Source: Anaerocolumna cellulosilytica
GTDB lineage: Bacteria > Bacillota > Clostridia > Lachnospirales > Lachnospiraceae
Direction: 5' to 3'
DNA length: 64,000 nt
Assembly: GCF_014218335.1 (NCBI RefSeq)
Contig: NZ_AP023367.1
Span: forward strand, 869,501-933,500
A model generated the notes under the pieces. The model was not told the DNA's origin, ran no database searches, and worked only from the letters and a program-made list of their open reading frames with translations. The position numbers were made by a program, and so were the translations under genes. Shown one piece after another: positions 9,869 through 27,178 of the stretch; position 1 is the first letter of the stretch; each line of letters starts with the position of its first letter.

Positions 9869-10000
9869 AACCCTTTAGGGTTTGCCAGGGAAATAAGTGC
9901 GGCTGGCGGACTTTTTAGAGCGTCTTTAGACGCAAGCAGGGAAAAGCCCCTTATAGGGGCAGAACAAGCCACCGGCTAAGCCGGTGGTTCTGACTATAAA

Positions 10001-10303
10001 ATAAATGTATTCATCTAGTACAGATGGGATATTATAGGACAAAATGTAAAAAAATGAAAATAGACATTGAATTATACTTGTAAATATGGTAAAATATTGT
10101 ATATATTAGAAAAATAAGTATATATAATACAAATCTAGTATGTTATTACATATAATACTATAACATAAAAAAATAATTAACTATGTAGTACATTATTCCT
10201 GAAAAATGGAATTATCCGGGTTTTGTTTCCTTAGTACAAGCATACTCACAATAATAGAACCTAGGTCTTAGAAAGGAAAAGCAATTCAATTGCAACGCGT
10301 AAA
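10001..10303 (+). other. Untranslated region before the biosynthetic cluster
   Basis: No gene was found here. It is very AT-rich and holds the promoter at 10067-10095 and the inverted repeat at 10139-10167. Just before the radical SAM start, the purine-rich AGAAAGGAAAAG is followed by the small hairpin GCAATT-C-AATTGC (10281-10293), which would bring that weak ribosome binding site closer to the ATG at 10304. Confidence 0.4.
10067..10095 (+). promoter_or_regulatory. Promoter at the head of the biosynthetic cluster
   Basis: TTGAAT (10067-10072) and TAAAAT (10090-10095) are separated by 17 bases, and a TG dinucleotide one base before the -10 makes it an extended -10 as well. It points at the radical SAM gene and would give a leader of about 200 bases. 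That leader contains an 8-bp inverted repeat (TATGTTAT at 10139-10146, ATAACATA at 10160-10167) which could be an operator or a small hairpin. Confidence 0.6.
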
Positions 10304-11629
10304 ATGAGGCACTTATATAGGAATAAAGAGCATTATTATTTAATTGATACCTCGTATATGAAATTTTATAAAATACCGTACAAGCTTGAGAATCAGCTTA
10401 GTACATATACATTAGAAGAGTTAGATGATATTGCAAAAGATTTTACACTTCCTGCTACAGATAGCATACCCTTGACTGTTATCGAAGAGAATACAGAACA
10501 ATGTAACAGACTGATACTAAATTTGAGTGAATTGTGTAATTTAGCCTGTAGATATTGTTATGCTGAGGAGGGAAGTTATGGACAGGAGACTTGCAATAAG
10601 AATATGTCCTTAGAAACTCTTAAAAAAGTAGTAACAAGAGCTTGTAGGCTTTATCCCGGAGGAATTGGACAGATTCAATTTTTTGGTGGAGAGCCTTTAT
10701 TAAACAAACGTGTTCTATACTCAGCGGTAGAATGGATAAAGGAATATACAGAAGGGTTGGGGTTAAAATGCCCGTTGTTTACAATAGTTACGAACGGTAC
10801 ATTAATTGATGATGAATGTATTACATTATTCAATGAATATTTTTCGTCAGTCACCATAAGCCTGGATGGTTCAAAAGCAGTAAATGACGGTAAAAGAGTT
10901 TTTAAGGGTACACATAGTTCTGTTTTTGATAAGGTAGCAGAAACAATCAGGCGAATGAATGAAAGAGAAAGAAAATATTATATATGTATAGAAGGAACCA
11001 TACACGAAGGTCATATTCAAGAGTTTGAAGAGAAAAGTAGTATGGAATCCTACAAAGCACTATATCAATTAGACGTTGATATTATTCATATCAGTCCTCT
11101 TATAGGTCGTTCAGATGATAGTGGAGAAAGCAAGATAAATTACAATAAGTTCTTCGAGGAATGGGTGAAAGAAGAATTTAAGAATGGAGTAGGTGGTATA
11201 AAGACCAGAACGGTTGCTAATTTGCTTTATGCTGCTAAGCAGCATAAAACATTCGGAAATGGCTGTGGTGCGACCAATACTGATTTAGCATCAGATGTTA
11301 ACGGTGGGCTTTATCCTTGTTTTATGTTTATTGGAGGAAATGAATACTTTTTGGGAGATACAAAGGATTCCATTGAAGAACAGCGCCAAAGGATATATGA
11401 AGTTCGCCAATTATTGAAAGAAGCGAATAACAATACAGAGTGCAATAAATGTTGGGTAAAACCAGTCTGTGCCAAATCTTATGGACACTGCATTGGGTCC
11501 AGATATTTGTCCAATGGAAGTGTATCAAGACCGGAAAAAGAAATATGTAGTATAAGCAAATGCGTTATGGAGAATATTTTTGTTCAATCCTATGAAAAAT
11601 ACGGCATACGGAAAAGTGAGGAGGATTGA
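10304..11629 (+). CDS. Radical SAM/SPASM peptide maturase
   Basis: The enzyme has 441 residues. An N-terminal region of about 70 residues precedes the radical SAM core with CNLACRYCY, giving the CxxxCxxC iron-sulfur motif at Cys78, Cys82 and Cys85, and FFGGEPLLN as the GGEP motif. The C-terminal part is a cysteine-rich SPASM domain with NGCGA, YPCFMF, ECNKCWVKPVC, YGHC and a final CSISKC, enough to hold two auxiliary clusters. This layout is that of enzymes that make sulfur-to-carbon or carbon-carbon links in RiPP precursors. The probable substrates are the two peptides at 26747 and 26883, which end in CDC. The M50 gene overlaps or abuts its end. The weak ribosome binding site is unusual. Confidence 0.88.
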   Translation: MRHLYRNKEHYYLIDTSYMKFYKIPYKLENQLSTYTLEELDDIAKDFTLPATDSIPLTVIEENTEQCNRLILNLSELCNLACRYCYAEEGSYGQETCNKNMSLETLKKVVTRACRLYPGGIGQIQFFGGEPLLNKRVLYSAVEWIKEYTEGLGLKCPLFTIVTNGTLIDDECITLFNEYFSSVTISLDGSKAVNDGKRVFKGTHSSVFDKVAETIRRMNERERKYYICIEGTIHEGHIQEFEEKSSMESYKALYQLDVDIIHISPLIGRSDDSGESKINYNKFFEEWVKEEFKNGVGGIKTRTVANLLYAAKQHKTFGNGCGATNTDLASDVNGGLYPCFMFIGGNEYFLGDTKDSIEEQRQRIYEVRQLLKEANNNTECNKCWVKPVCAKSYGHCIGSRYLSNGSVSRPEKEICSISKCVMENIFVQSYEKYGIRKSEED

Positions 11630-11636
11630 TAAAAAA

Positions 11637-12848
11637 GTGAGCGGTGAAGTTATCCTAGAACAAGATGAATGGAAACCACATTTAAAAGAAAGTGTGTATA
11701 CCAATGATATATACTTAAATAAAGAAGGTAAGGGCAACTGGGTTGTTGGGGAATACGAATGTGATACTCAATTTACGTTACCAGCGTATCAAAAGGAGGC
11801 TTTCGATAATGTATGTACTCTGCTTGATGGGAAACATACAATTGTTGAAATTGCTGATTCGACAGGAATTCACAGCAAAGAGATTCTATCCATACTGCAA
11901 GTATTAAAGAGTAAGGGAATGCTAAGGGAGAAATATAGCGGAACCCAGACACGATTTAGTGAAGTGGATAATCTCTCTATAAAATTAATAAACTATCAGT
12001 TCAAGAATCATCTTAATTCTATAAAGAATAGAAAGATAGCAGCAGTACTTGTAAAAGGCATGCATATAATACTACTACTGAGTATACTTGTTTTTGTATA
12101 TTTAAACATTCGTAACAACTTTGCTGCATTTAACAACACAACATTGGAACGTTGGTTAAGTTTTGGTAAGAGTGAATCCAATCAATGGACCGGATATCTA
12201 TTAATTAATCTTGGAATGGTACTTATGTTTGTATTTCATGAATTAGGGCATGTAATATCCGGTGTTCACGCGGGAATACAGCCGGAAAAGTTTTCATTTG
12301 TGTTATATTTGGGTTTTATACCTATGTTTTATGTAAAAAATAAAAACATATATTCCTTGAAAAAGAAGGATTTTTTAAAGGTATTATTGGCAGGTTGTTA
12401 TGTAAACATAATATTATGTATTATATTTCTGGATTTCTATCTATTTACTGGAAGTGAAATATGTAAAACTCTTGCAATGTCTAATTTAAGGATATTTTTT
12501 ATTAATTTGTGGCCGTTGTCACTTAGTGATGGATACTTTATATTTTCGGTTTTATTTCGCCATCCCAATCTGAGATATAAATTTCACTACTTTATAGCTA
12601 AGCCCAAAATAATAAAAAAATATAACCGAATGGAAGTCCTCTATACATTCCTTTCAATGTTTATACTTGTCTTAACAATGAGTTTTGAAGTTACTTGGTT
12701 TATTGGCCTTTTTAATATTTCAGAACAATTAAAAGTAGTAATAGTTTCAGCAATTCTTTGTACATATATAATTGTTTTACATTTTTTGAATAAGAGAAAG
12801 TTTGAAATAAATCCATATGGTTCAGCAACAGTAGGGGTACAGTCTTAA
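11637..12848 (+). CDS. M50-family membrane metallopeptidase with PqqD/winged-helix-like N terminus
   Basis: This membrane protein has the zinc-protease motif HELGH inside a helix (MVLMFVFHELGHVISGVHAG), as in site-2-type M50 proteases, and a later LSDGYFIF segment supplying the third ligand position. The N-terminal 110 residues contain an FDNVCTLLDGKHTIVEIA stretch typical of PqqD-like peptide-recognition or winged-helix domains. M50 proteins of this type accompany radical SAM maturases in RiPP clusters such as yyd, where they are thought to process or release the peptide. The GTG at 11637 is chosen because AGGAGG lies at 11619-11624; the ATG at 11592 is an alternative with no clear ribosome site. 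It is likely the leader protease, by inference. Confidence 0.75.
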   Translation: MSGEVILEQDEWKPHLKESVYTNDIYLNKEGKGNWVVGEYECDTQFTLPAYQKEAFDNVCTLLDGKHTIVEIADSTGIHSKEILSILQVLKSKGMLREKYSGTQTRFSEVDNLSIKLINYQFKNHLNSIKNRKIAAVLVKGMHIILLLSILVFVYLNIRNNFAAFNNTTLERWLSFGKSESNQWTGYLLINLGMVLMFVFHELGHVISGVHAGIQPEKFSFVLYLGFIPMFYVKNKNIYSLKKKDFLKVLLAGCYVNIILCIIFLDFYLFTGSEICKTLAMSNLRIFFINLWPLSLSDGYFIFSVLFRHPNLRYKFHYFIAKPKIIKKYNRMEVLYTFLSMFILVLTMSFEVTWFIGLFNISEQLKVVIVSAILCTYIIVLHFLNKRKFEINPYGSATVGVQS

Positions 12849-12903
12849 CAACAAGTATAAAACAGAGTAAAAGGGAATTTAAATAATATAGTAAAGGAAG
12901 TTG

Positions 12904-15378
12904 ATGATGAAAAAGATACTACAGGTGCTAATAAACAAACGAAATAGTAAGGAGCATAAATTATTTTTATGTCTAATGACCGTAATTGTAACCAGCCTTA
13001 CTTTATTCACTGCCTTTAATGCACTTCCACTTCTAGAAGAATCCATTAAACAAGACTTACGCCAGACAACTGTAGGAGAAGCAGATTATGTTGTAACACC
13101 AAAAGAAAGTGCTCTTTTTGAAGTGCCTACTATAGAGAATGGAAAAAGTTTAAATATACTAGCGCTAGAAGGTGGTATTACAAAAGAGAGGTATGCCAAA
13201 GTATTTATTTGGGAACTTGATTATAGCAAGTTTCTTGAGGTATTTGGAAATACATATATGGAAAAGGGTGAGGTAACCCTTCCGGTAACTCTTAACGAAA
13301 ATCAAGTATTGATTATGCCAGATACCAGTGACAAGCTCAATATAAATGAAGGGGATTTGGTGGAGTTTACTGTCTATGGTCAGAAAATCTATGCAGAAGC
13401 GGTCATTGCTCCGCGAGACAATTTTTTTGTTAAAGCAAATGGAGAAGTTGTAGTGATGGGTGCGGAAATCTTACGTACGGCATTAGATATTAAGGAAAAT
13501 CAAGTGACCCTTTCATACATATATAAAACGGAGAAGGGAGCAGATATAAAAGCAAATCTGCAAAAGCAAAATAATGAAATCATTGTGAAAGAGGCAATAG
13601 ATCCTGAATATATATCTGCAAATATGACAACTTACTATGGGATTGATTTTCTGATACTCGTTTTTATTTTATTAATTGCCAGGGATATATTAAAGTCTAC
13701 TGGACTTATATATGTAACAGAACGTTCTCGTTTTATTGGTACTTTACGAAGTAATGGAGCTGAGAAAAGATTAATAGTTCGCCTGTTTTCCAACATAGGT
13801 ATTAAAGTTGCCCTTAAGGGAAGCTTATTTGGCATGATGATTGGTATGGCACTCCTAATAACCTTTGCCAGATTTGGAATTGGTCTAACGAATGTATTGC
13901 AAGCGATTGATATTATCTTTTTAGCCATTGCAGTAATTGGAACTGGGGCAGTTATGACTATCCTGAGTTTGCTAAGTTTTCAAAGGCCTGTTAAACAATT
14001 GCTCTGTAAATCTGACCGGTCATTACTGCTTGAAAATGTATCGGCGGAAATGCAGCATGAAAAAGAGCGTAAGATGGACTATATTTACTGTATCCTATTA
14101 CTTGTGTTTATTATCCTTTCTTTCTTTTTGTCCAGATGGGATATGGGGGCTGTTTTGCTATATGTAATTACTTTTACATTTATTTTAATTAAGAGTATGA
14201 AATATCTATTTCTTAAACTAAAAAAAACAATTCAGCAAAAAACAGGAAAAGGTCTTTTCTTGATTGCAGCTAAAAATGTAGGTACCAATGTGTATCTTAG
14301 AAAAACACTATCTTTGACAATAACGATATCCTTATTTATTACTATAATAGGTATACTCATATTCTCTGTATTAGATGCAATGACAAGTTTTTATAGGGAT
14401 TATAAGTCAGATGCATACATAAGAGTTGAAGATGGTAAGGGATTTTCAGATACCGAACTAGATAAAGTAGAAAGGCTTTCTGACATTACAGATACCTATT
14501 TGTATTATACAGGTAAGGTGACAATTGTAACGAAAGAGGATGAACGGCAGGTAAAAGTTGTGGGCCTTGATGATCCGATTGATTACAATGACAACTTTAT
14601 GAATTTGAATTTGGATTGGGTCAAAGGATTTGACATCGCTACTTTTACCCAGTCAAGAAATGCTATTTTAAGTGAGATACTATGTAATCGATTTGGGTTT
14701 CAATTGGGTGATACAGTTACTTTATATGATGGAGAAAGTCAAAAAGATTATTATATTGCAGGAATAACTCCTTCCTTACAAGAACTTGGCGATGCAATAT
14801 ATATATCAAGATATGACAGTGAATTTCTTGGTGGAAGTATTAAAAACGGTCTTTATCTAAAATGTACGAACATGGCTAATATGGAAGATAGTATAGAAAA
14901 TATACTTTATGAACGTACTTATACGTTTAAAGATGTAACTGAAATGAAACAGAATGATGTTACTAATGGTATGCAGATTATAATTTTCTTCGTTTCTTTT
15001 GCAACATTGGTAGGTATGGCAAGTATTACAGGCATCTACAGCAATTATAAGCTCAGTTATATGATGAGACGAAAAGAGTTTGCTATACTGGTCTCAACAG
15101 GGTACAGCAAAAAAAATATATTTCATATACTAATGGGTGAAATAACACTTATCAGTCTAATAGGATATCTAATTGGAATGTTAATCATGTGGGTGATTAA
15201 AAAGCCTTTAGAAAGTCTTATGAAATTCGTTGAACTGCCAATAGAGCTTAATTTGAGCGGATTGATATTTTTAGCCTTGTTTTTTGTTGTGTTAATCAAT
15301 ACTCTACTCAATATTGTATTGGCTCACAAGTCAAGTCAATTATCAGCAGAAGGTATAATAGAAGTATTGAAAAAATAA
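12904..15378 (+). CDS. FtsX-like ABC transporter permease
   Basis: This large permease (about 824 residues) has an N-terminal helix, a long extracytoplasmic domain and two FtsX/MacB-type membrane blocks. The first is at about residues 245-360 and the second at about 690-815. Two further helices and a second extracellular domain lie between them. That is the ten-helix, two-FtsX plan of BceB/LolCE-type transporters. Start: AAGGAAG precedes tandem ATGs at 12904 and 12907. It pairs with the ATPase at 15400. In a RiPP cluster such transporters export the product or protect the producer from it; which applies here is not decidable. Confidence 0.85.
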   Translation: MMKKILQVLINKRNSKEHKLFLCLMTVIVTSLTLFTAFNALPLLEESIKQDLRQTTVGEADYVVTPKESALFEVPTIENGKSLNILALEGGITKERYAKVFIWELDYSKFLEVFGNTYMEKGEVTLPVTLNENQVLIMPDTSDKLNINEGDLVEFTVYGQKIYAEAVIAPRDNFFVKANGEVVVMGAEILRTALDIKENQVTLSYIYKTEKGADIKANLQKQNNEIIVKEAIDPEYISANMTTYYGIDFLILVFILLIARDILKSTGLIYVTERSRFIGTLRSNGAEKRLIVRLFSNIGIKVALKGSLFGMMIGMALLITFARFGIGLTNVLQAIDIIFLAIAVIGTGAVMTILSLLSFQRPVKQLLCKSDRSLLLENVSAEMQHEKERKMDYIYCILLLVFIILSFFLSRWDMGAVLLYVITFTFILIKSMKYLFLKLKKTIQQKTGKGLFLIAAKNVGTNVYLRKTLSLTITISLFITIIGILIFSVLDAMTSFYRDYKSDAYIRVEDGKGFSDTELDKVERLSDITDTYLYYTGKVTIVTKEDERQVKVVGLDDPIDYNDNFMNLNLDWVKGFDIATFTQSRNAILSEILCNRFGFQLGDTVTLYDGESQKDYYIAGITPSLQELGDAIYISRYDSEFLGGSIKNGLYLKCTNMANMEDSIENILYERTYTFKDVTEMKQNDVTNGMQIIIFFVSFATLVGMASITGIYSNYKLSYMMRRKEFAILVSTGYSKKNIFHILMGEITLISLIGYLIGMLIMWVIKKPLESLMKFVELPIELNLSGLIFLALFFVVLINTLLNIVLAHKSSQLSAEGIIEVLKK

Positions 15379-15399
15379 AAGCAGATAGAAAGGAAGGCA

Positions 15400-16065
15400 A
15401 TGATGGAACTAATTAAAGCAGTAAATGTAAGAAAAACATATATAGCTGGAACCGTTGAGACAGAAGTAATTAGAGGGATAGATTTAACAATCAAAAAAGG
15501 GGAGTTTGTAACCATAACAGGTCCCTCGGGTTCAGGTAAAAGCACCTTGTTGTATCTATTAAGCGGAATGGAGCCGCTCTCAGAAGGAAAAGTTTTTTTA
15601 GAAAATGAGGATATCTCCTCTATGGATGATAAGAAGATATCTCTACTCAGAAGAAAAGATATAGCTTTTGTATTTCAATTTTATAACTTATTATCTGAAA
15701 TGAATGTAACAGATAATGTGCTATTGCCTTCTCTAATTCTGCCGGGAGCAATTAACACAAATAGAATAAAAGAAGTATTAAAGGTAGTGGGGCTGGAAAA
15801 GTATGAAAGATCTTATCCATATGAGCTTTCTGGTGGGCAACAACAAAGAGCTGCTATAGCACGAGCTATTTATTCCAATCCCAAAGTCATATTTGCAGAT
15901 GAGCCTACGGGTAATCTGGATTCTGAAAACAGTCAAAAGATAATGGATATATTTGTGAAAATCAACAAAGAACTTGGCACAACAATAGTAATGGTAACTC
16001 ATTCAGAGAAATTTGCGACCTTTGGTACACGTACGATTCAAATGGGGGATGGAAGAGTATGCTAG
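15400..16065 (+). CDS. ABC transporter ATP-binding protein, MacB/LolD type
   Basis: The 221-residue ATPase has Walker A GPSGSGKST, the Q-loop FVFQFYNLL, the signature LSGGQQQR, Walker B VIFADEPTGNLDSEN and the switch histidine VTHSEKFA. The short length and the EPTGNLD string are typical of the MacB/LolD/BceA group that pairs with FtsX-type permeases, here the gene just upstream. It overlaps the BtrH-like gene by seven bases, which suggests translational coupling. It energises export or self-protection for the cluster. Confidence 0.92.
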   Translation: MMELIKAVNVRKTYIAGTVETEVIRGIDLTIKKGEFVTITGPSGSGKSTLLYLLSGMEPLSEGKVFLENEDISSMDDKKISLLRRKDIAFVFQFYNLLSEMNVTDNVLLPSLILPGAINTNRIKEVLKVVGLEKYERSYPYELSGGQQQRAAIARAIYSNPKVIFADEPTGNLDSENSQKIMDIFVKINKELGTTIVMVTHSEKFATFGTRTIQMGDGRVC

Positions 16066-17162
16066 TTGATGGGATTCCCACTAGGGTGCGAATTGATTTT
16101 CATTATAATGAAATGCCTAGAGAGTTGGGAGATTGCAGGACGCAGGCTTTTTGTATGATATTAAACCACTATGGATACGAAATCACTGCGCAAGAGATAT
16201 TTGGTATTGGGAGCGGGCTTGATTTTCATATAAAAAATATAAACTATAACGGGTTTGACTTACCATTAATATCCGGCAGAAATTTTGATGCAGAAAATAA
16301 TTGCTGTAAAATCTTACAAATTCCATGTAAAGAGCAAACGCTTGTTTATAATTCGGATATTTCTTCAGGTAATTTGTGTTTTGACAGGGATATATTGGAG
16401 ATTTTAGTTGAGGGGCGACCCGTATTAATACAATGTGACGTTTACTATATGACCTATTTATCAGATATTAAGAGAAACCATAATCAATATCATATGATAA
16501 TTATACTAGGCTTTGACCTTGAAAGCAGGGAATTTACAGTTCTTGACAGCGTATCCGGTCAAGTTCATACAATCGCAATGTCACAGTTGTATATGTCTAT
16601 GTTTGAGAAGTATTATGGTGACGAAAAGGTTGGAATTTGGTATGACATAAAGCAGCCAGAAAATATCTGTAATCAAAGAAAACAAATAGATAAGTACATA
16701 GAATCTTTCATGAATCAAGGGAATTCAATTATAAAGAATGACGGATATCTGGAAGAAATAAAGAAATATATTGATTTCTTAAATCGTATCCGAGAGTGTG
16801 CAAAGCAAGGTTCAGTGAATCATGATAATTATCTGAAATTTATTTTGGAGATGAATTGTATTCTAATTCGAAAGCAGGATGAGTTAAATGGAAGTTGTTT
16901 TCGCCATTTATATGAAAAATATTTGAATGAAGTATCAACACATTTGTCTCTCAATAATGAACTATGGAATGATTTGGTAATGTATATACAGCAGTCAGAG
17001 GCTGCTTTTAAAGCCTTAAGCTTTAAGGTACGCTATTATAATGGAACGACCTATGAGAAATGCGAAATGTTTATCCAAAATCTGGAGAAAATCTATAAAG
17101 CAGAGAAAGAATTAGGAACAAAACTAATGAATATCAGGAGGAACTTACAGGATGAAAAATGA
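16059..17162 (+). CDS. BtrH-like acyltransferase (papain-fold N terminus)
   Basis: The 367-residue protein resembles the butirosin BtrH N-terminal family (PF14399). A likely papain-type triad is visible: Cys26 in GDCRTQAF, His145 in QYHMIIIL and Asp163 in VLDSV. The family patterns MPRELGDC, GIGSGLDFHI and PVLIQCDVYY surround them. BtrH moves an acyl group from an acyl carrier protein to an amine of an aminoglycoside. Here the next gene, overlapping by 11 bases, is an acyl carrier protein, so transfer of a carrier-bound chain to the peptide or to the NRPS amino acid is a reasonable inference. The C-terminal 170 residues are helical and unassigned. Confidence 0.8.
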   Translation: MLVDGIPTRVRIDFHYNEMPRELGDCRTQAFCMILNHYGYEITAQEIFGIGSGLDFHIKNINYNGFDLPLISGRNFDAENNCCKILQIPCKEQTLVYNSDISSGNLCFDRDILEILVEGRPVLIQCDVYYMTYLSDIKRNHNQYHMIIILGFDLESREFTVLDSVSGQVHTIAMSQLYMSMFEKYYGDEKVGIWYDIKQPENICNQRKQIDKYIESFMNQGNSIIKNDGYLEEIKKYIDFLNRIRECAKQGSVNHDNYLKFILEMNCILIRKQDELNGSCFRHLYEKYLNEVSTHLSLNNELWNDLVMYIQQSEAAFKALSFKVRYYNGTTYEKCEMFIQNLEKIYKAEKELGTKLMNIRRNLQDEK

Positions 17163-17460
17163 ACTGGAGAAAATTATAGGTGAGTTAAAAGTGATGTTAC
17201 AAGATAGGCTTATGCTGCCATTTGAGCCAGAGGAAATTGATGAAGATGCATTAATTTTTGAAGCAATTGATATTGAAGAAGCGAAAGATTATCCAAATCT
17301 TGGCTTAGACTCTGTGGATGGTTTAGAGATTATGGTAGGTATTCAGAACTTATATCATGTAAAACTAGATGCAGAAAAAAATCCACAGGCATATAAATCA
17401 GTAAGGACATTAGCGGAAGCCGTTTACAAGTTATTAGAGGAAAAGAAATGTGAGGCCTGA
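17152..17460 (+). CDS. Acyl carrier protein
   Basis: The 102-residue acidic protein has the carrier signature LGLDSVDGLEI with Ser54 as the phosphopantetheine site. It is longer than a typical FabC-type ACP by a 20-residue insertion before the serine (EEIDEDALIFEAIDIEEAKD). It overlaps the BtrH-like gene and is followed two bases later by the ketosynthase. The dedicated phosphopantetheinyl transferase at 24320 probably activates it. It would carry the growing polyketide or fatty chain. Confidence 0.9.
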   Translation: MKNELEKIIGELKVMLQDRLMLPFEPEEIDEDALIFEAIDIEEAKDYPNLGLDSVDGLEIMVGIQNLYHVKLDAEKNPQAYKSVRTLAEAVYKLLEEKKCEA

Positions 17461-17461
17461 T

Positions 17462-18706: not shown

Positions 18707-18723
18707 AAAAGAAGGATGGCGGC

Positions 18724-19164: not shown

Positions 19165-20341
19165 TAGAATCTTTATAAGATGTATTGATGTAAAATCACC
19201 TGTAATTCCCGATGGGAGTGATTTTGAGGATACATTATTCCAACCGGAACAGTATTGGAGGGCTGAACGGCTGTTGGATTTAAAAGTATTGTTGAAACCT
19301 CATCTGAAGACTGTTCGAAGGATGAATCGTACGTCAAGTATGGCATATCTTTCTGCATCAGCCTTGATGGAAAAATCTGGTTTAGTAAAAGACGAATATG
19401 ATCCCTATCAGTTTGGTACGGTATTTTCAACTACAAATGCAAGCTATGAAAATGTGCTTCGTATTTTAAATACCCTTTATGAGGCAGGAAGAGAAGGTGT
19501 AAGTCCCATAGATTTTACATATTCAGTTGGGAATTCACTGATATCCGGTATTACTATGCAATACAATCTAAAAGGGCCCAGTACCATGCTTCCTATGTCA
19601 GAAGGATTACAGATTGCTAAAGTTATCTTGGAAGAAAACGATGCAAGTCGTATACTTGCAGGAACGTACAACATATGTTTGAGTGAAAATCTCGAGTATT
19701 ATAGACAGTTCAGCTATCTAAAAGGAGAAGAGAAGACATTTACAGGAATTTTGGAGAATGCCTGTGGAATGGTAATGAGAGAACAAGCAGTAAGTATGTT
19801 GTTAGAAAATGATAGTGTACATCCGGATGCAAAAGGTTGTTTTCTTTCTGGATTAGCTGTTAAGCGTAAGACAAAAACTAGTCAGACAAAAGCCGGTGAG
19901 TTTCATCAGGACTCAGCGTATGAGATGCACAGCATTTCAGAGTTGTCGGAGTTTCTAAGTAGTGATTTTGAAGAAACGATATCACTTGCACTATATGATG
20001 CCAACATTTTGGCAGAGGAAGTTGATGCAGTTTTTACTTGTGCCAGCGGACATCCAGGAATGGATTTTGCTGAATACGAGGCACTTGAAAGAAAAGTACC
20101 AAATGCAATAAGGGTATCCATACATGGAATATTCGGAGCAAACTTTGGCGGTAATTTTATGCTTAATTGTGCAGCAGCCGTGACTAGTTTAATGAAACAG
20201 AAACTTCCGCCATCTATGGGTGTTAAGGATACAAAGGGTAAGTTTACGATGCGTTCAGAAAGTAAAAAGATAAATACCATATTGGTGAATGGATATAATG
20301 AACTAGGCAATATAATAAGCGGGGTAATTCAATGGATCTAA
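19154..20341 (+). CDS. Ketosynthase-like chain length factor (KS-beta)
   Basis: The protein has the ketosynthase fold and length (395 residues) but is divergent. The segment aligned with the nucleophile of KS-alpha reads GPSTMLPMSEGLQIA, with methionine where the cysteine should be. The late histidine regions are also altered (CASGHPGMDFAEYEALE; GIFGANFGGNF). These changes are what distinguishes KS-beta or chain length factor from KS-alpha in type II systems. It should form a heterodimer with the product of the gene at 17462 and set chain length. It overlaps the dehydratase gene and the reductase gene by about 10 bases on each side. Confidence 0.82.
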   Translation: MSCNRIFIRCIDVKSPVIPDGSDFEDTLFQPEQYWRAERLLDLKVLLKPHLKTVRRMNRTSSMAYLSASALMEKSGLVKDEYDPYQFGTVFSTTNASYENVLRILNTLYEAGREGVSPIDFTYSVGNSLISGITMQYNLKGPSTMLPMSEGLQIAKVILEENDASRILAGTYNICLSENLEYYRQFSYLKGEEKTFTGILENACGMVMREQAVSMLLENDSVHPDAKGCFLSGLAVKRKTKTSQTKAGEFHQDSAYEMHSISELSEFLSSDFEETISLALYDANILAEEVDAVFTCASGHPGMDFAEYEALERKVPNAIRVSIHGIFGANFGGNFMLNCAAAVTSLMKQKLPPSMGVKDTKGKFTMRSESKKINTILVNGYNELGNIISGVIQWI

Positions 20342-21081
20342 ATTTATGTAATAAGGTGGTTCTCATAAGCGGAGGCAGCAGGGGGATTGGACAGGCTCTG
20401 TGTGATGCATTTGCACAAGAAAATTGCAGAGTGTATTTTTTTTATAAAAAAAATAAAACATTGGCGGAGGAAACGGTGGCTTCGGCAATGGAAAAATCAG
20501 CAAATGCATTTGTTAAGGGAATACAACTAGATATCACTGATGGCGCGGCCTGTGAAAATGCTGTACATGAGATACTGGATGTAGAAGGAAAGATAGATGT
20601 CTTAATTAATAATGCAGGAACTACTAAGGACGGACTATTTCTTTCACAGGAATTTGGAAAATGGGAATCCGTAATTCAAACCAATATTTTTGGAACTGTG
20701 AAATTAACCTCTCCTGTAGCCATGGCAATGTTTACTAAACGAAGTGGAAGCATTATTAATATTAGTTCTGTAGCAGGTCTTACAGGTGTGAAAGGACAAA
20801 CAAATTACTGTACATCAAAAGCGGGGCTTATTGGGTTGACAAAAGCCTTATCAAAGGAATTAGGATTAAAAAATATACGAGTGAATGCAATAGCGCCGGG
20901 ATATATTGAAACAGATATGACAAAAGGATTAAAAAATATGAATGAACTAAGTAAACTGATTCCCTTAAAAAGATTGGGATTACCTTCTGAGGTAGCAAAA
21001 ACAGCGGTTTTTCTTGCTTCAGAAGCAGCAAGCTATATTAATGGAGAGATAATAGTAGTAGATGGTGGATTAATTGCGTAG
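20332..21081 (+). CDS. 3-oxoacyl-ACP reductase, FabG/SDR family
   Basis: This short-chain dehydrogenase of 249 residues has the cofactor loop SGGSRGIGQAL, NNAGTT, the catalytic Ser in NISSVAG and the YCTSK tyrosine-lysine pair, then APGYIETDM and the C-terminal INGEIIVVDGGL. It reduces the 3-keto group after each condensation, probably with NADPH. It completes a keto-reducing and dehydrating cycle with the KS pair and FabZ homologue. It overlaps the KS-beta gene by 10 bases. Confidence 0.93.
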   Translation: MDLNLCNKVVLISGGSRGIGQALCDAFAQENCRVYFFYKKNKTLAEETVASAMEKSANAFVKGIQLDITDGAACENAVHEILDVEGKIDVLINNAGTTKDGLFLSQEFGKWESVIQTNIFGTVKLTSPVAMAMFTKRSGSIINISSVAGLTGVKGQTNYCTSKAGLIGLTKALSKELGLKNIRVNAIAPGYIETDMTKGLKNMNELSKLIPLKRLGLPSEVAKTAVFLASEAASYINGEIIVVDGGLIA

Positions 21082-21149
21082 CTATATCCCAAAACAATCT
21101 GGAAAACGAAAGATAAGCATTTAATACGATGGTAGGTGGTGGGGAATCA

Positions 21150-24100
21150 ATGCATACAAAAGAATATTTTAAGCTTGGAATTTCAGGTGTTTTTCAAATG
21201 GCTGTCGAGAAGTATAAAAATCAACCGGCTGTAACGGGTCTGTCAGGCACTATGACCTATAAGGAATTAGATGATATGTCTTCACGTTTAGCATCTCGAT
21301 TGCTGCGTCTTGATGGTTGGTCGGAAGATATTGTAACTGCGGTAGACGTTTCCAAAGATAACGGCGCAATTATATTACTTTTAGCTATTTATAAAGCACA
21401 CGGAATCTTTCTTCCAATTCCACGGTCTTGCCCGCAAAAGCGTTTGGTAAGTATGACTGAGCAGGGAGAAGCAAAAATTCTAATAACAGATTCAGCAGAA
21501 AGAGCAGAAAGTATAGTACAGTATATTCAAACAGTATATTTACAGGACATAATGAAAGATTTGTCAAAGGAGGAGCCCTATAAATCTGCGTTAGAAGATA
21601 AAAGAGGAGAGGCTTTGGCATACATTATTTTTACTTCTGGATCTACCGGAAAACCAAAAGGTATTATGGTATCTCAACAAAGCGTAGTTCATATTGCCTA
21701 TACCTGTTATAGTAGATTCTTTGGACTTTCAGAGGAAGCTGAATTTGAACAACTGCAGGGACTTACGAAGGAATACCTAAAAATGGGTGTCCTTTCAGAT
21801 TTTAGCTTTGATCCAAGTGTAGTTCAAATTTATATGGCACTATTTTTCGGACACTGTATTGTACTGATTACTGAAGAAATAAAGCGATCCCAATGGGAAT
21901 TATCAAATTACTGGAGGAAATATCAGGTAGATGTATGTGAAATTACACCAACCCATTTGAAGCATATACTACAGTATTTTAATAAAAGAGATGAGGAATT
22001 GTATCTTCCACAAATCATTATTTCGGTTGGAGAACCTTTACCTTTAAAATTATTGAAAGATGTTTTTGGACTTGGAAAAATAGGTGTAAAAAAGGTAATC
22101 AATGCCTACGGACCAACTGAGGTGTGTGTATATTCTCATGCAAGAGTGTATTCGTACGAAGAAGTAGATTACATTAATGAGATATCAATTGGCAGACCAT
22201 TAAAGGGTTATGAGGTTTACCTATTAAACCATAAAAAAGAAGATGTTAAAGAAGGGGAAGTGGGTGAAATTTATATCCACAGTCCGTATCTGTCGCTTGG
22301 ATATATAAATAATGAAGATATGACAAAAAAAACTTTTCTAAAAGTCCACAATTCTGACCATCGGATGTATAAAACCAATGACCTGGGTATTATTAAAAAA
22401 GATGGTGAATATTTATGTTTGGGGCGTTCTGATGATCAGATTAAGATTCGAGGACATAGAATCGAACTGGGAGAAATAGAAAATGTCCTAAAGGAATATG
22501 GTGATTTTTCAGATATACGTGTACTTGCAAAGGAAGATGATAATCAACAAAAACACATCATTGCTTTTTACTTGGGAGAGGGTAAGGATGAAAAGGAGCT
22601 TAAAGGTACTTTTAAGAATTACTTGCCGGAATATATGATACCAAATCGGTTTATTCGTCTAAATCATATTCCTATTAATGCAAATGGTAAGATTAATAGG
22701 CAGGAATTACTTCAGATGATTGAAGTAAACAGCAGTTTGCCTCTTATCCGTACAAAGCAAAGCCTGGTAGAAATATGCCGGGAAATTATTAAATGTAATA
22801 CCTTAACTGGGACAGATAACTTTTTTGACAATGGTGCGACTTCTTTAGAAGTATTTATACTGAATACAAGAGTGTTTCATGAGTGGGGAGTTGTACTTGA
22901 AAATAAAGATATTTATCAGAGTGAGACAATATGGCAGATACAAAAATTAATTGAAGACAAGCTTTTAATCTCTAAGGAGAACTATGGGGAAACGTCTGAG
23001 AATTTAGCAGATTCAGAGATGGTTAAGGCAACGGAATTCCAATGTAAAATAATTAGAAGTGAAAACAGAGTTTACAAGAACAGAAAATTGGAAGACAGCA
23101 ATAAAACTTCGGAAATGCCACCTTACAATGTCGTATACAAAATCACACATTCACAATATATAGACAATGAAAAGTTAGAGAATGCCATAGACAAGATGAT
23201 AAAAAGGCATCGTATTCTACGCAGCAGTTTTTTGGTTAAGGATGGGGTAGTTTACATCAGGGCCGAAAAAGAAGGAAAAATTGATTTTTCTTATCTTATG
23301 GTAGAAAATATAAATAAGCTGGATTTGTCTGCATATACACATGAATTTCGTTTCAATTCTTTACCTTTGTTTCAAATTGTTTTATTTGAGGATAGGCAGC
23401 GAGAACAGGAAATAGTATTAAATCTTCATCACGGAATCTTTGACTACCTTTCTTTATCTGTATTCATAAATGAATTGTTTCGATTGTATTATCAAATTCC
23501 AATGAAACTGCCAGATAGCGATTTTTTCGAATATAGAAAACAATATATACAGGCTGATAAGACAAGACTGAATGAGTTTTGGAAACAGTATATGCGTAAC
23601 AGACCGCTGAGTGTAGGATTTCAAGGGAACGGTGAAAATCAAAGATTGAAAGTGAAAAAGCAAGAAAAATTCAAATGTCTGCAACGAAACTATGACGTGA
23701 CCGTCATGAATACTATGAAGGAATTATGTATTCGAGAAAAAATTAGTATGTTTACCCTAACTTCTGTGATTTTGGCACAAATATTAAGTGACTGGGAAAA
23801 TCAACAAGAGTTTTGCATTGGTACTATACTTCATGGGAGAATGAGTAATGTTCCTGGAGTTAGTAGTATGATTGGGTTATTTGCTGAATTAATGCCATTG
23901 CGTTATATAATATACACAAATGAAAGCTTGAGAACCAAACTACAAAGGCATCAGAAATATTTGGAAGATGTATTGGAGCATCAAGGGCTGGGGATGAATG
24001 AATTATATATGCTCCAGGATTATGAAGAACGTTTTAAAGGGGATTACTTTAAACTGATAATTAATTATCATACGGATTTTTCGTGTAACCTTCCTAATGG

Positions 24101-24323
24101 AATGGGCTTTGTAATAGCAGAAGAGATAGGACAGTATCCAGAGGAAGTACCATTATATATTCAGATTAGAGAATACAAGGATGGTATTAATTTTCACTTA
24201 ATATATGCTGCATCTATTTATAAAAAAGAAGATATCGAGCGTATTATGAATGACTACTCTAACTGTTTAACAAACTGGATAGAAATACTTCAAACAGAGC
24301 CACAGGATAGAAAAACCGTATGA
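21150..24323 (+). CDS. NRPS module with A-T-C domain order
   Basis: This protein of about 1057 residues starts with an adenylation domain (to about residue 530): FTSGSTGKPKG, NAYGPTE, YKTNDLG, GRSDDQIKIRGHRIELGE and NANGKINRQEL. A carrier domain follows with DNGATSLEVF, then a condensation domain (about 630-1040) with LHHGIFDYLS, which keeps HHxxxD but has Tyr in place of the usual Gly. The Asp in FSFDPSV, which pairs with the substrate amino group in most A domains, is kept, so an alpha-amino acid is likely. By alignment to GrsA the pocket reads roughly D-P-V-E-I-V-A-V-Y-K, which I cannot assign. No thioesterase domain is present. The ATG at 21150 is preferred over 21129. Confidence 0.88.
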   Translation: MHTKEYFKLGISGVFQMAVEKYKNQPAVTGLSGTMTYKELDDMSSRLASRLLRLDGWSEDIVTAVDVSKDNGAIILLLAIYKAHGIFLPIPRSCPQKRLVSMTEQGEAKILITDSAERAESIVQYIQTVYLQDIMKDLSKEEPYKSALEDKRGEALAYIIFTSGSTGKPKGIMVSQQSVVHIAYTCYSRFFGLSEEAEFEQLQGLTKEYLKMGVLSDFSFDPSVVQIYMALFFGHCIVLITEEIKRSQWELSNYWRKYQVDVCEITPTHLKHILQYFNKRDEELYLPQIIISVGEPLPLKLLKDVFGLGKIGVKKVINAYGPTEVCVYSHARVYSYEEVDYINEISIGRPLKGYEVYLLNHKKEDVKEGEVGEIYIHSPYLSLGYINNEDMTKKTFLKVHNSDHRMYKTNDLGIIKKDGEYLCLGRSDDQIKIRGHRIELGEIENVLKEYGDFSDIRVLAKEDDNQQKHIIAFYLGEGKDEKELKGTFKNYLPEYMIPNRFIRLNHIPINANGKINRQELLQMIEVNSSLPLIRTKQSLVEICREIIKCNTLTGTDNFFDNGATSLEVFILNTRVFHEWGVVLENKDIYQSETIWQIQKLIEDKLLISKENYGETSENLADSEMVKATEFQCKIIRSENRVYKNRKLEDSNKTSEMPPYNVVYKITHSQYIDNEKLENAIDKMIKRHRILRSSFLVKDGVVYIRAEKEGKIDFSYLMVENINKLDLSAYTHEFRFNSLPLFQIVLFEDRQREQEIVLNLHHGIFDYLSLSVFINELFRLYYQIPMKLPDSDFFEYRKQYIQADKTRLNEFWKQYMRNRPLSVGFQGNGENQRLKVKKQEKFKCLQRNYDVTVMNTMKELCIREKISMFTLTSVILAQILSDWENQQEFCIGTILHGRMSNVPGVSSMIGLFAELMPLRYIIYTNESLRTKLQRHQKYLEDVLEHQGLGMNELYMLQDYEERFKGDYFKLIINYHTDFSCNLPNGMGFVIAEEIGQYPEEVPLYIQIREYKDGINFHLIYAASIYKKEDIERIMNDYSNCLTNWIEILQTEPQDRKTV

Positions 24324-25048
24324 TGAACACACTTAAAAATGGATCTATCTATTTGATGAATATTGAAACTATTAGTGAAAGAGAATGGGAATTCTATTAT
24401 TCTAAGATAAATCTCCTTCCCATAGTATGTCAGAAGAAAATAAAAAATATCAAATACCCGCAAAAACAAAAGCTTAGTTTAATGGGATGGCTTATGCATA
24501 AATTTTTACTGTCAGAAAGATGTAAAGATGTAAAGGAGTCGGAGTTAGTATTTAATAAAGAAGGGAAACCATTTCATAAAAACTCAAAGTGGCAATTTAA
24601 TATTAGTCACAGCTATCCATGGGTATGCTTGGGAATATCCTGTTCCAGTATAGGAATTGATATAGAGTCTAAATTTGTTTCAGAACCAGAGAAAGTTTTA
24701 GAGATATTTTCAGCTGATGAAAGAAATTGGATTCAAGTAAAAAGTAATAACAGTACTGAAAAAATGAAGTATTATATACAGTGTTTGTGGAGTGCAAAAG
24801 AAGCCTGGCTGAAATATTTAGGAACTGGTTTTTCAACTCAAAATACAGAGCTACCATTTGCCCTTGAGGAAGGGGAATTGATTCATCATTACATAAAAAA
24901 AGATGAGACAAAGGTATATTTGCACCAGACACCTGTTAAGAGGGGTTCTGTTTTAAGTGTTTGTCTTGAGTTCCAAGAGTATACGATTGAGTATCTAACG
25001 GGTAATCAAGTAAAGAGTTATATTGAAAAGGAGCAGTTACTGTGTTAA
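24320..25048 (+). CDS. Sfp-type 4'-phosphopantetheinyl transferase
   Basis: The 242-residue protein has the family magnesium-binding motif IGIDIE, the second motif WSAKEAWLKYLGTGF and the preceding FNISHSYPWVCLGIS. It transfers phosphopantetheine from coenzyme A to carrier serines. Substrates nearby are the ACP at 17152 and the carrier domain of the NRPS, which it overlaps by four bases (ATGA). Having its own Sfp-type enzyme supports the view that this locus is a complete, self-contained biosynthetic cluster. Confidence 0.92.
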   Translation: MMNTLKNGSIYLMNIETISEREWEFYYSKINLLPIVCQKKIKNIKYPQKQKLSLMGWLMHKFLLSERCKDVKESELVFNKEGKPFHKNSKWQFNISHSYPWVCLGISCSSIGIDIESKFVSEPEKVLEIFSADERNWIQVKSNNSTEKMKYYIQCLWSAKEAWLKYLGTGFSTQNTELPFALEEGELIHHYIKKDETKVYLHQTPVKRGSVLSVCLEFQEYTIEYLTGNQVKSYIEKEQLLC

Positions 25049-25560
25049 TTCCTACATATGTTACAGAACATACCGTCAAATTTTCAGAATGTAATTATTA
25101 TGGTATGGCATCTAATTACACTTATATGTGCTGGTTCGAAGATGCGCGATTATTAATAAGTGAGGTAGCAGGCATACAAGGTTTCTTTTATAAAGAACAT
25201 CGTAGTAATAAAGAGGCAGATGAAACCATTAATAAGACAAAAGAGTATTTTACAATGCCTGTGTTACAAAATAGATTATATAATTTTAGAGAGTTGGCTT
25301 TTGGAACAAAAATTCTAGTTCACACTTGGTTAGAGGAACCAACGAGCGCCTATACTACTTTTAATCATTGTATCACTTCAAAGGATAGAACTATTAAATA
25401 CGCTGCATGTGAAGCACAAATAGGATTGATGGGAGAAAAAAGCGGACTGATGTTGGATATGCCAAAAGAAATGTACCGACTTATAGCTGATTTTATTCAA
25501 ACTATTAGAGATACAAAGAATCCATCTCTTCTGGAGGTAACCAATGAAGAATGGTTTTAA
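25042..25560 (+). CDS. Hotdog-fold thioesterase-like protein 1 (catalytic Asp changed)
   Basis: The 172-residue protein matches the 4HBT/FadM group at FSECNYYGMASNYTYMCWFEDAR. In active 4HBT enzymes this stretch reads like FGDCDPAG with a catalytic aspartate; here that position appears to be Asn (ECNYYG). It is therefore either inactive, a binding partner or a different lyase or transferase. The start is a GTG overlapping the end of the phosphopantetheinyl transferase gene. It overlaps the second hotdog gene by 17 bases, so the two products may form a heteromer. Confidence 0.7.
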   Translation: MLIPTYVTEHTVKFSECNYYGMASNYTYMCWFEDARLLISEVAGIQGFFYKEHRSNKEADETINKTKEYFTMPVLQNRLYNFRELAFGTKILVHTWLEEPTSAYTTFNHCITSKDRTIKYAACEAQIGLMGEKSGLMLDMPKEMYRLIADFIQTIRDTKNPSLLEVTNEEWF

Positions 25561-25900
25561 TGAACACTACAAGTACGAGGTAGGTTTTGGTGATTGTGAT
25601 GCTTATCAGATAGCGCATAATGCTAGATATGTACAATGGTTTGAGCAGGGTATATACAAACATTTTATGGCTGATGCGGATAATCTTTTAAAAGAAAAAA
25701 GACTGATAATTACGGAGGTTAGGTATCGATATTTACATGCTGTTAAATATGGAGATAAAATAAATATCCTTACAGAAATAGAGAAAGATAAGGACGATGA
25801 AAAATTATATAAGTTTTATCAAAGAATAATAAAGGAAGAACCAAAAAAGATAGTAAGCATATGCAAAGGGGCTGTCAGGTTAGAAGAAAAAACAACCTAG
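25544..25900 (+). CDS. Hotdog-fold thioesterase-like protein 2 (4HBT family)
   Basis: This short protein (118 residues) keeps the expected aspartate in FGDCDAYQIAHNARYVQWFEQG, the 4HBT/FadM active-site region. It probably hydrolyses an acyl thioester, releasing or editing chains from the ACP. It overlaps its degenerate paralogue upstream, and the ribosome binding site (TGGAGG) lies inside the upstream gene. Its substrate in this cluster would be the acyl-ACP or a misprimed carrier; this is inference. Confidence 0.75.
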   Translation: MKNGFNEHYKYEVGFGDCDAYQIAHNARYVQWFEQGIYKHFMADADNLLKEKRLIITEVRYRYLHAVKYGDKINILTEIEKDKDDEKLYKFYQRIIKEEPKKIVSICKGAVRLEEKTT

Positions 25901-25943
25901 TATAGGCAGTTTTCAGACATACAAGAAGATAAGAGGAGAAAAT

Positions 25944-26684
25944 ATGCATATTTTATTACTAAACTCCAGTATAAAAAAGAAAAAAAGCAGAAGCCTTACC
26001 ATTGCACATTCCTTCATCGAAGGGCTTAAAGTAAATGAAGAGATTAAGGAACAAATTGAGGTTGAAGAAGTCTGTCTTTATGAAAAAAATATTAAGGAAT
26101 GCCTTTGTTGCTATTACTGCTGGAGAGAGGATTCGGAAGGAAATTGTATACAAAAAGACGACATGAGTGAATTACTAATGAAATATATAAGTTATGACAT
26201 TGTAATATGGAGTTTCCCACTTCTCTTTTATGGTTTTCCGGCAGTAATGAAGAAATTTATTGAACGTTCTTTGCCCCTCTATACATCTCATAAATACGTA
26301 GAGGGTAATGAATATATTCAGGCACGTCGCTATACTAAGCTAGTAGATAGAAGGGAACTATTTATATCTACATGTGGTTTACCTGTTCGCAATAATAATT
26401 ATGAACCTGTTGATGAAATGCTTCGTCTAATGTTCCATGATAAGGCAGAACGGATATATTGTACACAAGGCACTTTATTTGAAGAGAAAAGATTTGATAA
26501 AATTGTAAATCGATATTTACTTGCGGTAAAAGAAGCCGGAAGATATTACTCTTTGGAAGATGGAATACTTCCAAAATATAAAGATAGGCTATCACAACCC
26601 TTTTTACCAGAAGAGTTATATGCAGATGCAGCTAATCATAATAAAACATGGCTGAATCGGCAAAATGTAAATAGTCTTAATTAG
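25944..26684 (+). CDS. NAD(P)H-dependent FMN reductase / flavodoxin-fold flavoprotein
   Basis: The 246-residue protein has the flavodoxin-like opening MHILLLNSSIKKKKSRSLTIA, the cysteine-rich CLCCYYCWREDSEGNC and the SFPLLFYGFPAVMKKFIER flavin loop typical of the FMN_red/iron-sulfur flavoprotein group. It may supply electrons to the radical SAM enzyme or carry out a redox tailoring step. It sits between the hotdog genes and the precursor peptides in the same direction. The cysteines could bind a 4Fe-4S cluster; only the pattern is seen. Confidence 0.78.
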   Translation: MHILLLNSSIKKKKSRSLTIAHSFIEGLKVNEEIKEQIEVEEVCLYEKNIKECLCCYYCWREDSEGNCIQKDDMSELLMKYISYDIVIWSFPLLFYGFPAVMKKFIERSLPLYTSHKYVEGNEYIQARRYTKLVDRRELFISTCGLPVRNNNYEPVDEMLRLMFHDKAERIYCTQGTLFEEKRFDKIVNRYLLAVKEAGRYYSLEDGILPKYKDRLSQPFLPEELYADAANHNKTWLNRQNVNSLN

Positions 26685-26746
26685 ATAGGAAGGACTACTC
26701 TGTACTATGAGTCTTACATATATACATATACGAAAGGAGAGATAAA

Positions 26747-26851
26747 ATGAATAGTATCGATTTAAAATTAGAAGAAGCAGAATTCAATTTTAATGTGGAA
26801 GATCTGGAAGAAGTAATTACACCAGGAAGTGGCTTTGGCTGCGATTGTTAA
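26747..26851 (+). CDS. RiPP precursor peptide 1
   Basis: A 34-residue peptide with a strong ribosome binding site (GAAAGGAGAG). The N-terminal part (MNSIDLKLEEAEFNFNVEDL) is acidic and probably helical, as expected for a leader. The C-terminal 11 residues are ITPGSGFGCDC. The downstream paralogue keeps that C-terminal block exactly, with scattered conservative changes in the leader (S3N, D5E, L6V, A11L, D19E, E22D). This is the conservation pattern of leader plus core. The cysteines are the obvious radical SAM targets. It lies at the end of an operon that starts with a SPASM maturase. No known precursor family was recognised. Confidence 0.82.
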   Translation: MNSIDLKLEEAEFNFNVEDLEEVITPGSGFGCDC

Positions 26852-26882
26852 TAATGATTTAAAATTCTAAGGAGGGAATGCC

Positions 26883-26990
26883 ATGAATAATATTGAGGTA
26901 AAACTAGAAGAACTGGAATTTAACTTCAACGTAGAAGAACTAGAAGATGTAATCACACCAGGAAGTGGATTTGGTTGCGATTGTAACTAA
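26883..26990 (+). CDS. RiPP precursor peptide 2
   Basis: A 35-residue paralogue of the peptide at 26747, separated from it by 31 bases and with its own ribosome binding site (AAGGAGGGAAT). It opens MNNIEVKLEELEFNFNVEEL and ends ITPGSGFGCDCN, one residue longer. At the DNA level the two copies differ mostly at third codon positions, so selection is acting on the peptide. It is the last gene of the biosynthetic operon, about 130 bases before the terminator at 27122. Confidence 0.82.
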   Translation: MNNIEVKLEELEFNFNVEELEDVITPGSGFGCDCN

Positions 26991-27121
26991 TTTCCTGAAA
27001 TATTAATATCCTTATAGACTTGCTTTACTGCTTATAAAAGGTAGTCCTAACCTTGATTCATAGTACGATTTATAAATTGTATTTATATAATTATTTTGAA
27101 TTGGGAAAGCAAGTTCAATAT

Positions 27122-27178
27122 AATAACTGTTCATAGAATTATTGATGACCCAAAATTCTATGAACAGTTATTTTTTAA
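27122..27178. terminator. Bidirectional terminator ending the biosynthetic cluster
   Basis: AATAACTGTTCATAGAATT (27122-27140) pairs perfectly over 19 bp with 27154-27172, with a 13-base loop and T runs on the plus strand. The convergent VOC gene ends at 27175, so the hairpin can serve both strands. Confidence 0.85.

Follow-up and report, generated by a model that had tools for sequence, protein, structure and literature searches.

Do the genes for a modified ribosomal peptide and the genes for an acyl chain that lie together in one block of the Anaerocolumna cellulosilytica chromosome serve a single pathway, or do they only share a locus? We addressed this question in a stretch of 64,000 nt (NZ_AP023367.1, positions 869,501-933,500), called here the window, whose positions are used as coordinates; the host genome is 5.43 Mb long and consists of one contig. 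An earlier note had described the block as a hybrid of a system for a ribosomally synthesized and post-translationally modified peptide (RiPP), a type II polyketide synthase (PKS) and a non-ribosomal peptide synthetase (NRPS). As judged from sequence comparison, gene order in five genomes, coherent divergence and presence in the same three of 68 Clostridium genomes support the view that the two halves are one conserved unit. We further consider it probable that a single pathway makes a lipid-capped RiPP, i.e. an acyl- or acyl-aminoacyl-capped peptide modified by a radical S-adenosylmethionine (SAM) enzyme.

Organization of the gene block

Reading of the open frames and their domains placed seventeen genes, all on the + strand, between positions 10304 and 26990:

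10304..11629, + strand, radical SAM/SPASM peptide maturase, 441 aa, with CxxxCxxC plus the SPASM cysteines
11580..12848, + strand, membrane metalloprotease with an N-terminal RRE-like domain (about residues 31-120) and an M50/site-2-protease domain, HELGH and DG motif
12901..15378, + strand, FtsX/MacB-type permease, 825 aa, predicted to export (domain matches)
15400..16065, + strand, LolD/FtsE-type ABC ATPase (domain matches)
16059..17162, + strand, BtrH-type acyltransferase, the proposed joining enzyme, likely triad C26-H145-D163
17152..17460, + strand, acyl carrier protein (ACP) with DSVD (domain matches), in 5/5 clusters
17450..18706, + strand, ketosynthase (KS) KS-alpha, Cys-His-His intact in 5/5 clusters
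18724..19164, + strand, FabZ-type dehydratase (domain matches)
19154..20341, + strand, KS-beta, chain-length-factor-like, catalytic Cys and both His absent in 5/5 clusters
20332..21081, + strand, FabG-type ketoreductase (domain matches)
21129..24323, + strand, NRPS module, adenylation - carrier - condensation (A-T-C), carrier Ser and HHxxxD kept
24320..25048, + strand, 4'-phosphopantetheinyl transferase (PPTase; domain match)
25042..25560, + strand, hotdog (4HBT) thioesterase 1 (domain match)
25544..25900, + strand, hotdog (4HBT) thioesterase 2 (domain match)
25944..26684, + strand, Flavodoxin_2 / NADPH-FMN-reductase-like protein (domain match), in 5/5 clusters
26747..26851, + strand, precursor peptide 1, 34 aa, ending VITPGSGFGCDC
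26883..26990, + strand, precursor peptide 2, 35 aa, ending VITPGSGFGCDCN

All the genes named in the earlier note were recovered in open frames of the + strand; its list had left out the two 4HBT thioesterases and the Flavodoxin_2/FMN_red protein, and the FtsX permease has a LolD-like ATPase of its own. With the start codons listed, overlaps of 4-17 nt occur at eight of the 16 gene junctions, and the junction between maturase and M50 protease would be a ninth, of 50 nt, if a TTG start is used. The BtrH gene overlaps both its neighbours, the ATPase gene by 7 nt and the ACP gene by 11 nt, so that no gap separates the peptide half from the acyl half.

The two halves are conserved together

The same gene order was found in four further genomes (G689, DSM 8431, SIG253 and SIG252), all of which encode one or more precursors with the ending TPGxGFGCxC. 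A BtrH search among 391 genomes of the class returned nine with a match, namely the host itself, G689 (50% identity) and seven weaker ones. In G689 the order of all 15 larger proteins is unchanged, their identities are 40-73%, and three precursors come after them. A contig collection (84,980 species by the description of the tool) was scanned with two exact 7-residue patterns taken from a two-sequence maturase alignment, a procedure by which relatives may be missed, and yielded six loci, of which three, with maturases at 42-53% identity, belong to Clostridium. In DSM 8431 and SIG253 the order is kept from the maturase to FabG and the NRPS, then the reductase, the SIG253 precursors lying upstream of the maturase and not last; the SIG252 locus is split between two contigs, one holding the maturase end and the other the part from FtsX to the precursors. 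The other three loci of the scan (27-29%) hold a maturase, an M50-like match and an ABC ATPase, and no PKS match was present in the 11-21 kb examined around them.

Among 68 genomes of the Clostridium genus of G713, a maturase profile built from the window and G689 only passed 1e-60 in three; the identical three exceeded 500 bits with a KS-beta profile, which included the three Clostridium sequences, and nothing else rose above 84 bits. In the phylum sample KS-beta matched at 1e-30 in one of 378 genomes, that of the host, and no close KS-beta relative lacking the peptide half was found in the genome searches, the 68-genome genus and the phylum sample included. In the large genome samples (family for M50, class for BtrH, phylum for BtrH and KS-beta), which overlap, at most five candidates were scored per genome. 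Over ten genome pairs, the mean identity of the maturase, M50 protease and ATPase correlated with that of the six PKS/NRPS genes (r = 0.988, reached by 1/120 relabelings), a comparison that leaves out FtsX, BtrH, the precursors, the PPTase, the thioesterases and the reductase, the latter three not being in all five clusters or not aligned.

The earlier note had proposed to ask whether these genes co-occur in other genomes, and the answer, the same order in four more genomes and the same three of 68 for KS-beta and maturase, favours the hybrid. Separation of the halves in relatives, which it held would make them simple neighbours, was encountered in a weak form only: a similar peptide half is alone in distant relatives (maturase at most 37% identical), and no close KS-beta relative was met alone in the searches.

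The BtrH-type protein resembles carrier-protein acyltransferases

The BtrH_N domain (PF14399) was recognised in the window protein with 65.8 bits, above the gathering threshold of 29.7, and 6/6 members matched at E 0.01. The structural alignments of CtaG, CcbD and AziU3 with the model of this protein span nearly all of it, at 6-10% sequence identity, and the protein is predicted to share the fold and the Cys-His-Asp triad of these acyltransferases, with CtaG also the spacing of the triad; with BtrH of butirosin it shares the Pfam domain. CtaG, CcbD, AziU3 and BtrH are the carrier-protein acyltransferases of closthioamide, celesticetin, azinomycin and butirosin, which pass an acyl group to an amine; to our knowledge none of them acts on a ribosomal peptide. 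The note's view of an acyltransferase set between the two halves is borne out in position and in the modelled, carrier-protein-dependent transferase fold, the right kind of joining enzyme; the transfer itself is a prediction.

Could this protein instead be a leader-removing peptidase, with the acyl chain either left unattached or attached by the condensation domain of the NRPS? The BtrH_N fold is papain-like and Peptidase_C39_2 also matches 4/6 members (best E 4.3e-6), with the window protein at 21.6 bits, below the cut-off of 24. However, the nearly full-length structural match to AziU3, CtaG and CcbD lies well above that to C39 peptidases, and the block already encodes a protease that has its motifs intact and carries an RRE-like domain. 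We therefore hold a peptidase role to be highly improbable.

Other BtrH neighbourhoods were inspected in seven phylum genomes (match at 1e-6, the host aside), in G620 and in G718. The seven loci were rejected as further hybrids, KS or ACP matches being found in 0/7: one (L091) has a weak radical SAM match about 8 kb off, one (L092) a general FabG-like match, and the others AMP-ligase-like or ABC-ATPase matches. The BtrH gene of G718 was likewise set aside, as it adjoins unrelated genes on a 3.9-kb contig. As read from the frames, two more BtrH homologues of G620 (L111, contig C6) belong to a butirosin-like group that also comprises AMP ligase, decarboxylase and ATP-grasp-like genes; the DarH model recognises neither of them.

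Precursor peptides and their modification

The full sequences are MNSIDLKLEEAEFNFNVEDLEEVITPGSGFGCDC for precursor 1 and MNNIEVKLEELEFNFNVEELEDVITPGSGFGCDCN for precursor 2; both end TPGSGFGCDC and both are preceded by AAGGAG, which resembles a ribosome-binding site. An encoded precursor with leader and core beside a maturase, as expected of a lipidated RiPP, is present. T-P-G-x-G-F-G-C-x-C is common to ten full precursors of the five genomes, a count that omits one SIG252 precursor, the second, which is truncated where its contig stops and has no ATG start (intact copies occur in the other genomes). The two cysteines are separated by D, A or N. Over the eight core positions that never vary, 360 pairwise comparisons of codons gave 163 differences at codon position 3 and none at positions 1 and 2; such differences, confined to third positions, mark strict coding selection on the core and show that the precursors are real genes. 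None of the precursors has a lysine in its last 20 residues. A class-wide precursor search gave matches in 3/291 genomes, the host and two weak ones (20.0 and 18.4 bits) in long frames, taken as chance.

The maturase has PapB (NF047865) as its best NCBIfam match, at 166.8 bits in the window and 156.8-221.1 bits in the three relatives scanned, all below the cut-off of 340. PapB-type ranthipeptide cores carry CxxxD-type repeats; here the core has CxC instead, and neither score nor core places the system among the PapB-type ranthipeptides. A PapB-like Cys-Asp thioether is weakened as a candidate, the residue between the cysteines being D, A or N. Peptidase_M50 was detected in the protease of 6/6 relatives, the window member scoring 25.2 bits, just under the Pfam cut-off of 27.2. 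The protease resembles those of daptides and YydH/LiaK below the curated cut-offs (54.4 and 39.0 bits with the daptide and epipeptide M50 models of NCBIfam, against 300 and 225), so that membership in either family is not indicated. Pfam PqqD gave no match in the protease; its predicted structure carries an RRE, leader-binding fold, with three strands and three helices as in PqqD-like domains.

The precursors invite a further explanation, that the peptide is a scaffold to which an acyl-aminoacyl unit is attached, further modified and released, as in pearlins, leaving a small final product and a peptide that is used again. Very short precursors, mostly in two to three similar copies per cluster, with an almost invariant core, are as one would expect for a carrier, and the A-T-C NRPS could hand an amino acid to a peptide amine. 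Yet no PEARL-type ligase was recognised, attachment in pearlins takes place at the peptide C-terminus, which here is the conserved CxC, and a leader protease and an exporter belong to the set; we hold this scaffold role to be improbable.

The acyl and NRPS genes

The type II PKS set is complete in 5/5 clusters, with KS-alpha keeping Cys-His-His, KS-beta without Cys, and an ACP. In agreement with the earlier note, KS-alpha, KS-beta, ACP, FabG and FabZ come without a separate enoyl reductase (ER) among the 17 genes; a host ER could act on the chain, so that a saturated as well as a polyene chain is possible. The NRPS carrier domain scores 14.4 bits in Pfam, below cut-off, and its Ser is invariant in 5/5 clusters. 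The adenylation-domain code, read by eye at the GrsA positions as approximately D-P-V-E/D-I/V-V-A-V-Y (window and G689), pointed to no confident amino acid and was not used. No lanthipeptide synthetase or GNAT family appears in the Pfam lists of the 17 genes, and the block does not fall among the lipolanthines, lipoavitides or goadvionins.

A ketosynthase pair in PDB 9s5h (chains B and C) was among the high-ranking matches of both profiles, at 236 bits for KS-alpha and 57 bits for KS-beta. The host genome has 40 ketosynthase matches, mostly in open frames of more than 1000 aa, and several large modular PKS regions besides the block (contig C1, 1.80-1.85, 2.39-2.47 and 4.43-4.54 Mb).

Simpler relatives and origin of the block

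In G620, a genome of the genus of G689 (L029 9445-17760), a BtrH-type protein (20% identity) and a maturase (37%) are accompanied by an M50 protein, an ATPase, an FtsX-type permease, five near-identical precursor frames ending TPACGGGCG[A/G]GC and an additional short frame that contains Cys; the 20 kb examined yielded no PKS or ACP match. This is possibly a simpler acylated RiPP system that uses a host acyl donor. The locus of Bifidobacterium bohemicum (L033 6082-12001) comprises a 37-aa frame ending SPATGGGCGGLC, an ATPase, a maturase and an M50-like gene, and no BtrH match was obtained there. Its precursor frame lies between two copies of the same transposase, and this RiPP system is probably mobile. 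Pairs of radical SAM and M50 genes occur also at L012, L034 and L035.

Since a peptide system of this kind occurs where the acyl half is missing, the BtrH gene, and after it the acyl genes, would seem to have been added, a reading based on five plus two loci and not on a tree. We tentatively put forward, as an idea on which we remain doubtful, a new biosynthetic class that unites three assembly logics in a single product: a polyene-like chain from the type II PKS would be linked to the amino acid loaded by the NRPS, and a transferase of the CtaG/CcbD kind would move this acyl-aminoacyl unit to the N-terminus of a ribosomal peptide crosslinked by radical SAM. It would have arisen by steps still visible: the peptide half alone (Bifidobacterium), the peptide half plus BtrH (G620) and the full hybrid (five genomes).

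The same loci bear on whether one operon could make two products, a small N-acyl amino acid or amide from the PKS/NRPS half, with BtrH releasing the chain onto a small amine, and a separate peptide from the radical SAM half, the two cooperating, e.g. as a two-part antimicrobial or signal. The similar peptide half standing alone in B. bohemicum and the three pairs just named fit this idea, as do the two other BtrH proteins of G620, whose butirosin-like set includes no recognised peptide; an A-T-C NRPS and a type II PKS might be all that an N-acyl amino acid requires. We nevertheless regard two products as unlikely: close KS-beta relatives were met only with the peptide half, the G620 BtrH gene adjoins RiPP precursors with no PKS or ACP match in the 20 kb examined, and just one exporter is present. 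One product is preferred mainly because of this G620 arrangement and of the BtrH fold.

A BtrH search of 14 genomes of the same genus gave nothing but one weak match of 22%, and the M50 protein had a match in 6 of 299 family genomes (host 941.8 bits, next 58.8). Together with an IS200-type transposase directly upstream (9395-9868), this suggests that the block may have been gained horizontally. A plasmid collection contained neither a close maturase relative (65 records, all <60%) nor a close BtrH relative (5 records, at most 23.9%).

A proposed single pathway and its strength

We infer the chemical steps, their order, the attachment site and the product as follows. The radical SAM enzyme would modify one or both conserved core cysteines, probably to a thioether, while the acidic leader is still attached; the RRE-like domain of the M50 protease would hold the leader, with the cut falling near the VxTPG region. 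KS-alpha/KS-beta, ACP, FabG and FabZ would build an unreduced or partly reduced acyl chain, and the A-T-C NRPS would load one amino acid, which may join this chain. The BtrH-type enzyme is expected to take the carrier-bound acyl or acyl-aminoacyl group onto its own cysteine and to pass it to a peptide amine, most likely the new N-terminus of the cleaved peptide; N-terminal capping is predicted because lysine is missing from the last 20 precursor residues. LolD/FtsX would export the finished product, which may be a lipid- or polyene-capped peptide.

Several observations weigh against this single pathway. Co-conservation could also reflect two products under one control, which would leave a similar genomic trace, and distant relatives carry a peptide half like this one and lack the acyl genes. 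The number of clusters, five, is small; two of them, those of DSM 8431 and SIG252, are near relatives (79-92% identity per gene) and drive part of the identity correlation, and the overlap in 3/68 genomes takes no account of relatedness. Among the five clusters, the PPTase was not found by tblastn in the three of Clostridium, nor were the two thioesterases in SIG253. The BtrH-type protein stays below the cut-off of 300 of the DarH acyltransferase model (NF053550), with 68.8 bits in the window and 48.7-104.5 in four relatives; its triad was assigned by spacing only, because H141 and D153 are also invariant; and only one of its five models is good, the others scoring 65.6 or lower. The protease model is of modest quality (71.3, pTM 0.63). 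Finally, the A-T-C module has no obvious role in a simple transfer of an acyl chain to a peptide.

Control signals and flanking sequences

Two structured elements were delimited at the 3' end of the block:

27122..27172, + strand, terminator-like stem, 19-nt arms 27122-27140/27154-27172, 100% complementary, followed by four Ts
26691..27066, + strand, long-range inverted repeats around the precursors, 26691-26698/27041-27048 and 26702-26710/27058-27066

The 19-bp terminator reported at 27122 was confirmed by its perfect arms, its four Ts and a fold z of -8.2, none of 200 shuffles being equally stable. A terminator scan did not list it because its 13-nt loop exceeds the 8-nt limit of that scan. 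By contrast, the promoter placed at 10067 (TTGAAT-17-TAAAAT with TG, 9/12 matches) did not hold: promoter-like sites in 9800-27300 number 87 against 77.1 (sd 7.8) in shuffles, no more than chance, and the site was dropped as evidence. A short G+C-rich hairpin (9969-9987) lies just upstream of the block.

The inverted repeats share AGGACTAC/GTAGTCCT in the window and in G689, where they reach 15 nt without mismatch (L028 9476-9490 and 9999-10013). The motif is thus in 2/5 clusters, none being seen in DSM 8431, SIG253 or the cut SIG252 locus; the repeats could shield or separate the precursor mRNA.

Relation to known systems

In type II PKS systems that supply starters to an NRPS, as for cinnamoyl-capped peptides such as skyllamycin, and in polyene systems such as that of ishigamide, KS-alpha/KS-beta, ketoreductase, dehydratase and ACP without ER feed an amide step, as proposed here; unlike in those systems, the peptide of our block is ribosomal and the NRPS is one A-T-C module.

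The earlier note had stated that known lipid-RiPP hybrids use lanthipeptide enzymes, modular PKS or GNAT transferases. PMC13060382 gives microvionin, the goadvionins, lipoavitides, selidamides and nostolysamides all as lanthipeptides, the first two being class III lanthipeptides with an N-terminal lipid. The statement is too narrow for the lipoavitides, for which the title of Ren et al. (2024, Nat. Chem., cited in PMC13060382) has 'non-modular fatty acid synthases', and for the DAG-RiPPs, which, according to a preprint (PMC12636315), are lipidated via the lipoprotein pathway. With lipoavitides and microvionin/goadvionins our system shares a ribosomal peptide with an acyl chain and an expected N-terminal acylation, with lipoavitides also, by that title, non-modular acyl synthases; it differs in having radical SAM instead of a lanthipeptide synthetase, a BtrH-type enzyme instead of a GNAT, and an NRPS and KS-beta in addition. 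In selidamides and nostolysamides, likewise acylated RiPPs, GNATs acylate ornithine or lysine side chains, again by PMC13060382, whereas the last 20 residues here are without lysine. DAG-RiPPs are also lipidated outside the lanthipeptides, but their lipid comes from the lipoprotein pathway and here it is predicted to come from a dedicated PKS.

The acyl half is not new in principle, because the title of Ren et al. already names non-modular fatty acid synthases for RiPPs. What appears new within lipidated RiPPs, on the evidence of gene content and pending a product, is its combination with radical SAM, BtrH-type transfer and an NRPS module. No such hybrid is described in the titles or abstract starts that searches of open-licence PMC papers returned, and one may exist in print elsewhere. 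If the single pathway is real, it would add a further route to lipopeptides beside GNAT-acylated lanthipeptides and lipoprotein-pathway peptides, provide a new transferase for peptide N-termini and display an evolutionary series from a plain RiPP to a triple hybrid. TPGxGFGCxC adjoining BtrH would serve as a simple key for finding further members, and the attachment site is a prediction that can be tested.

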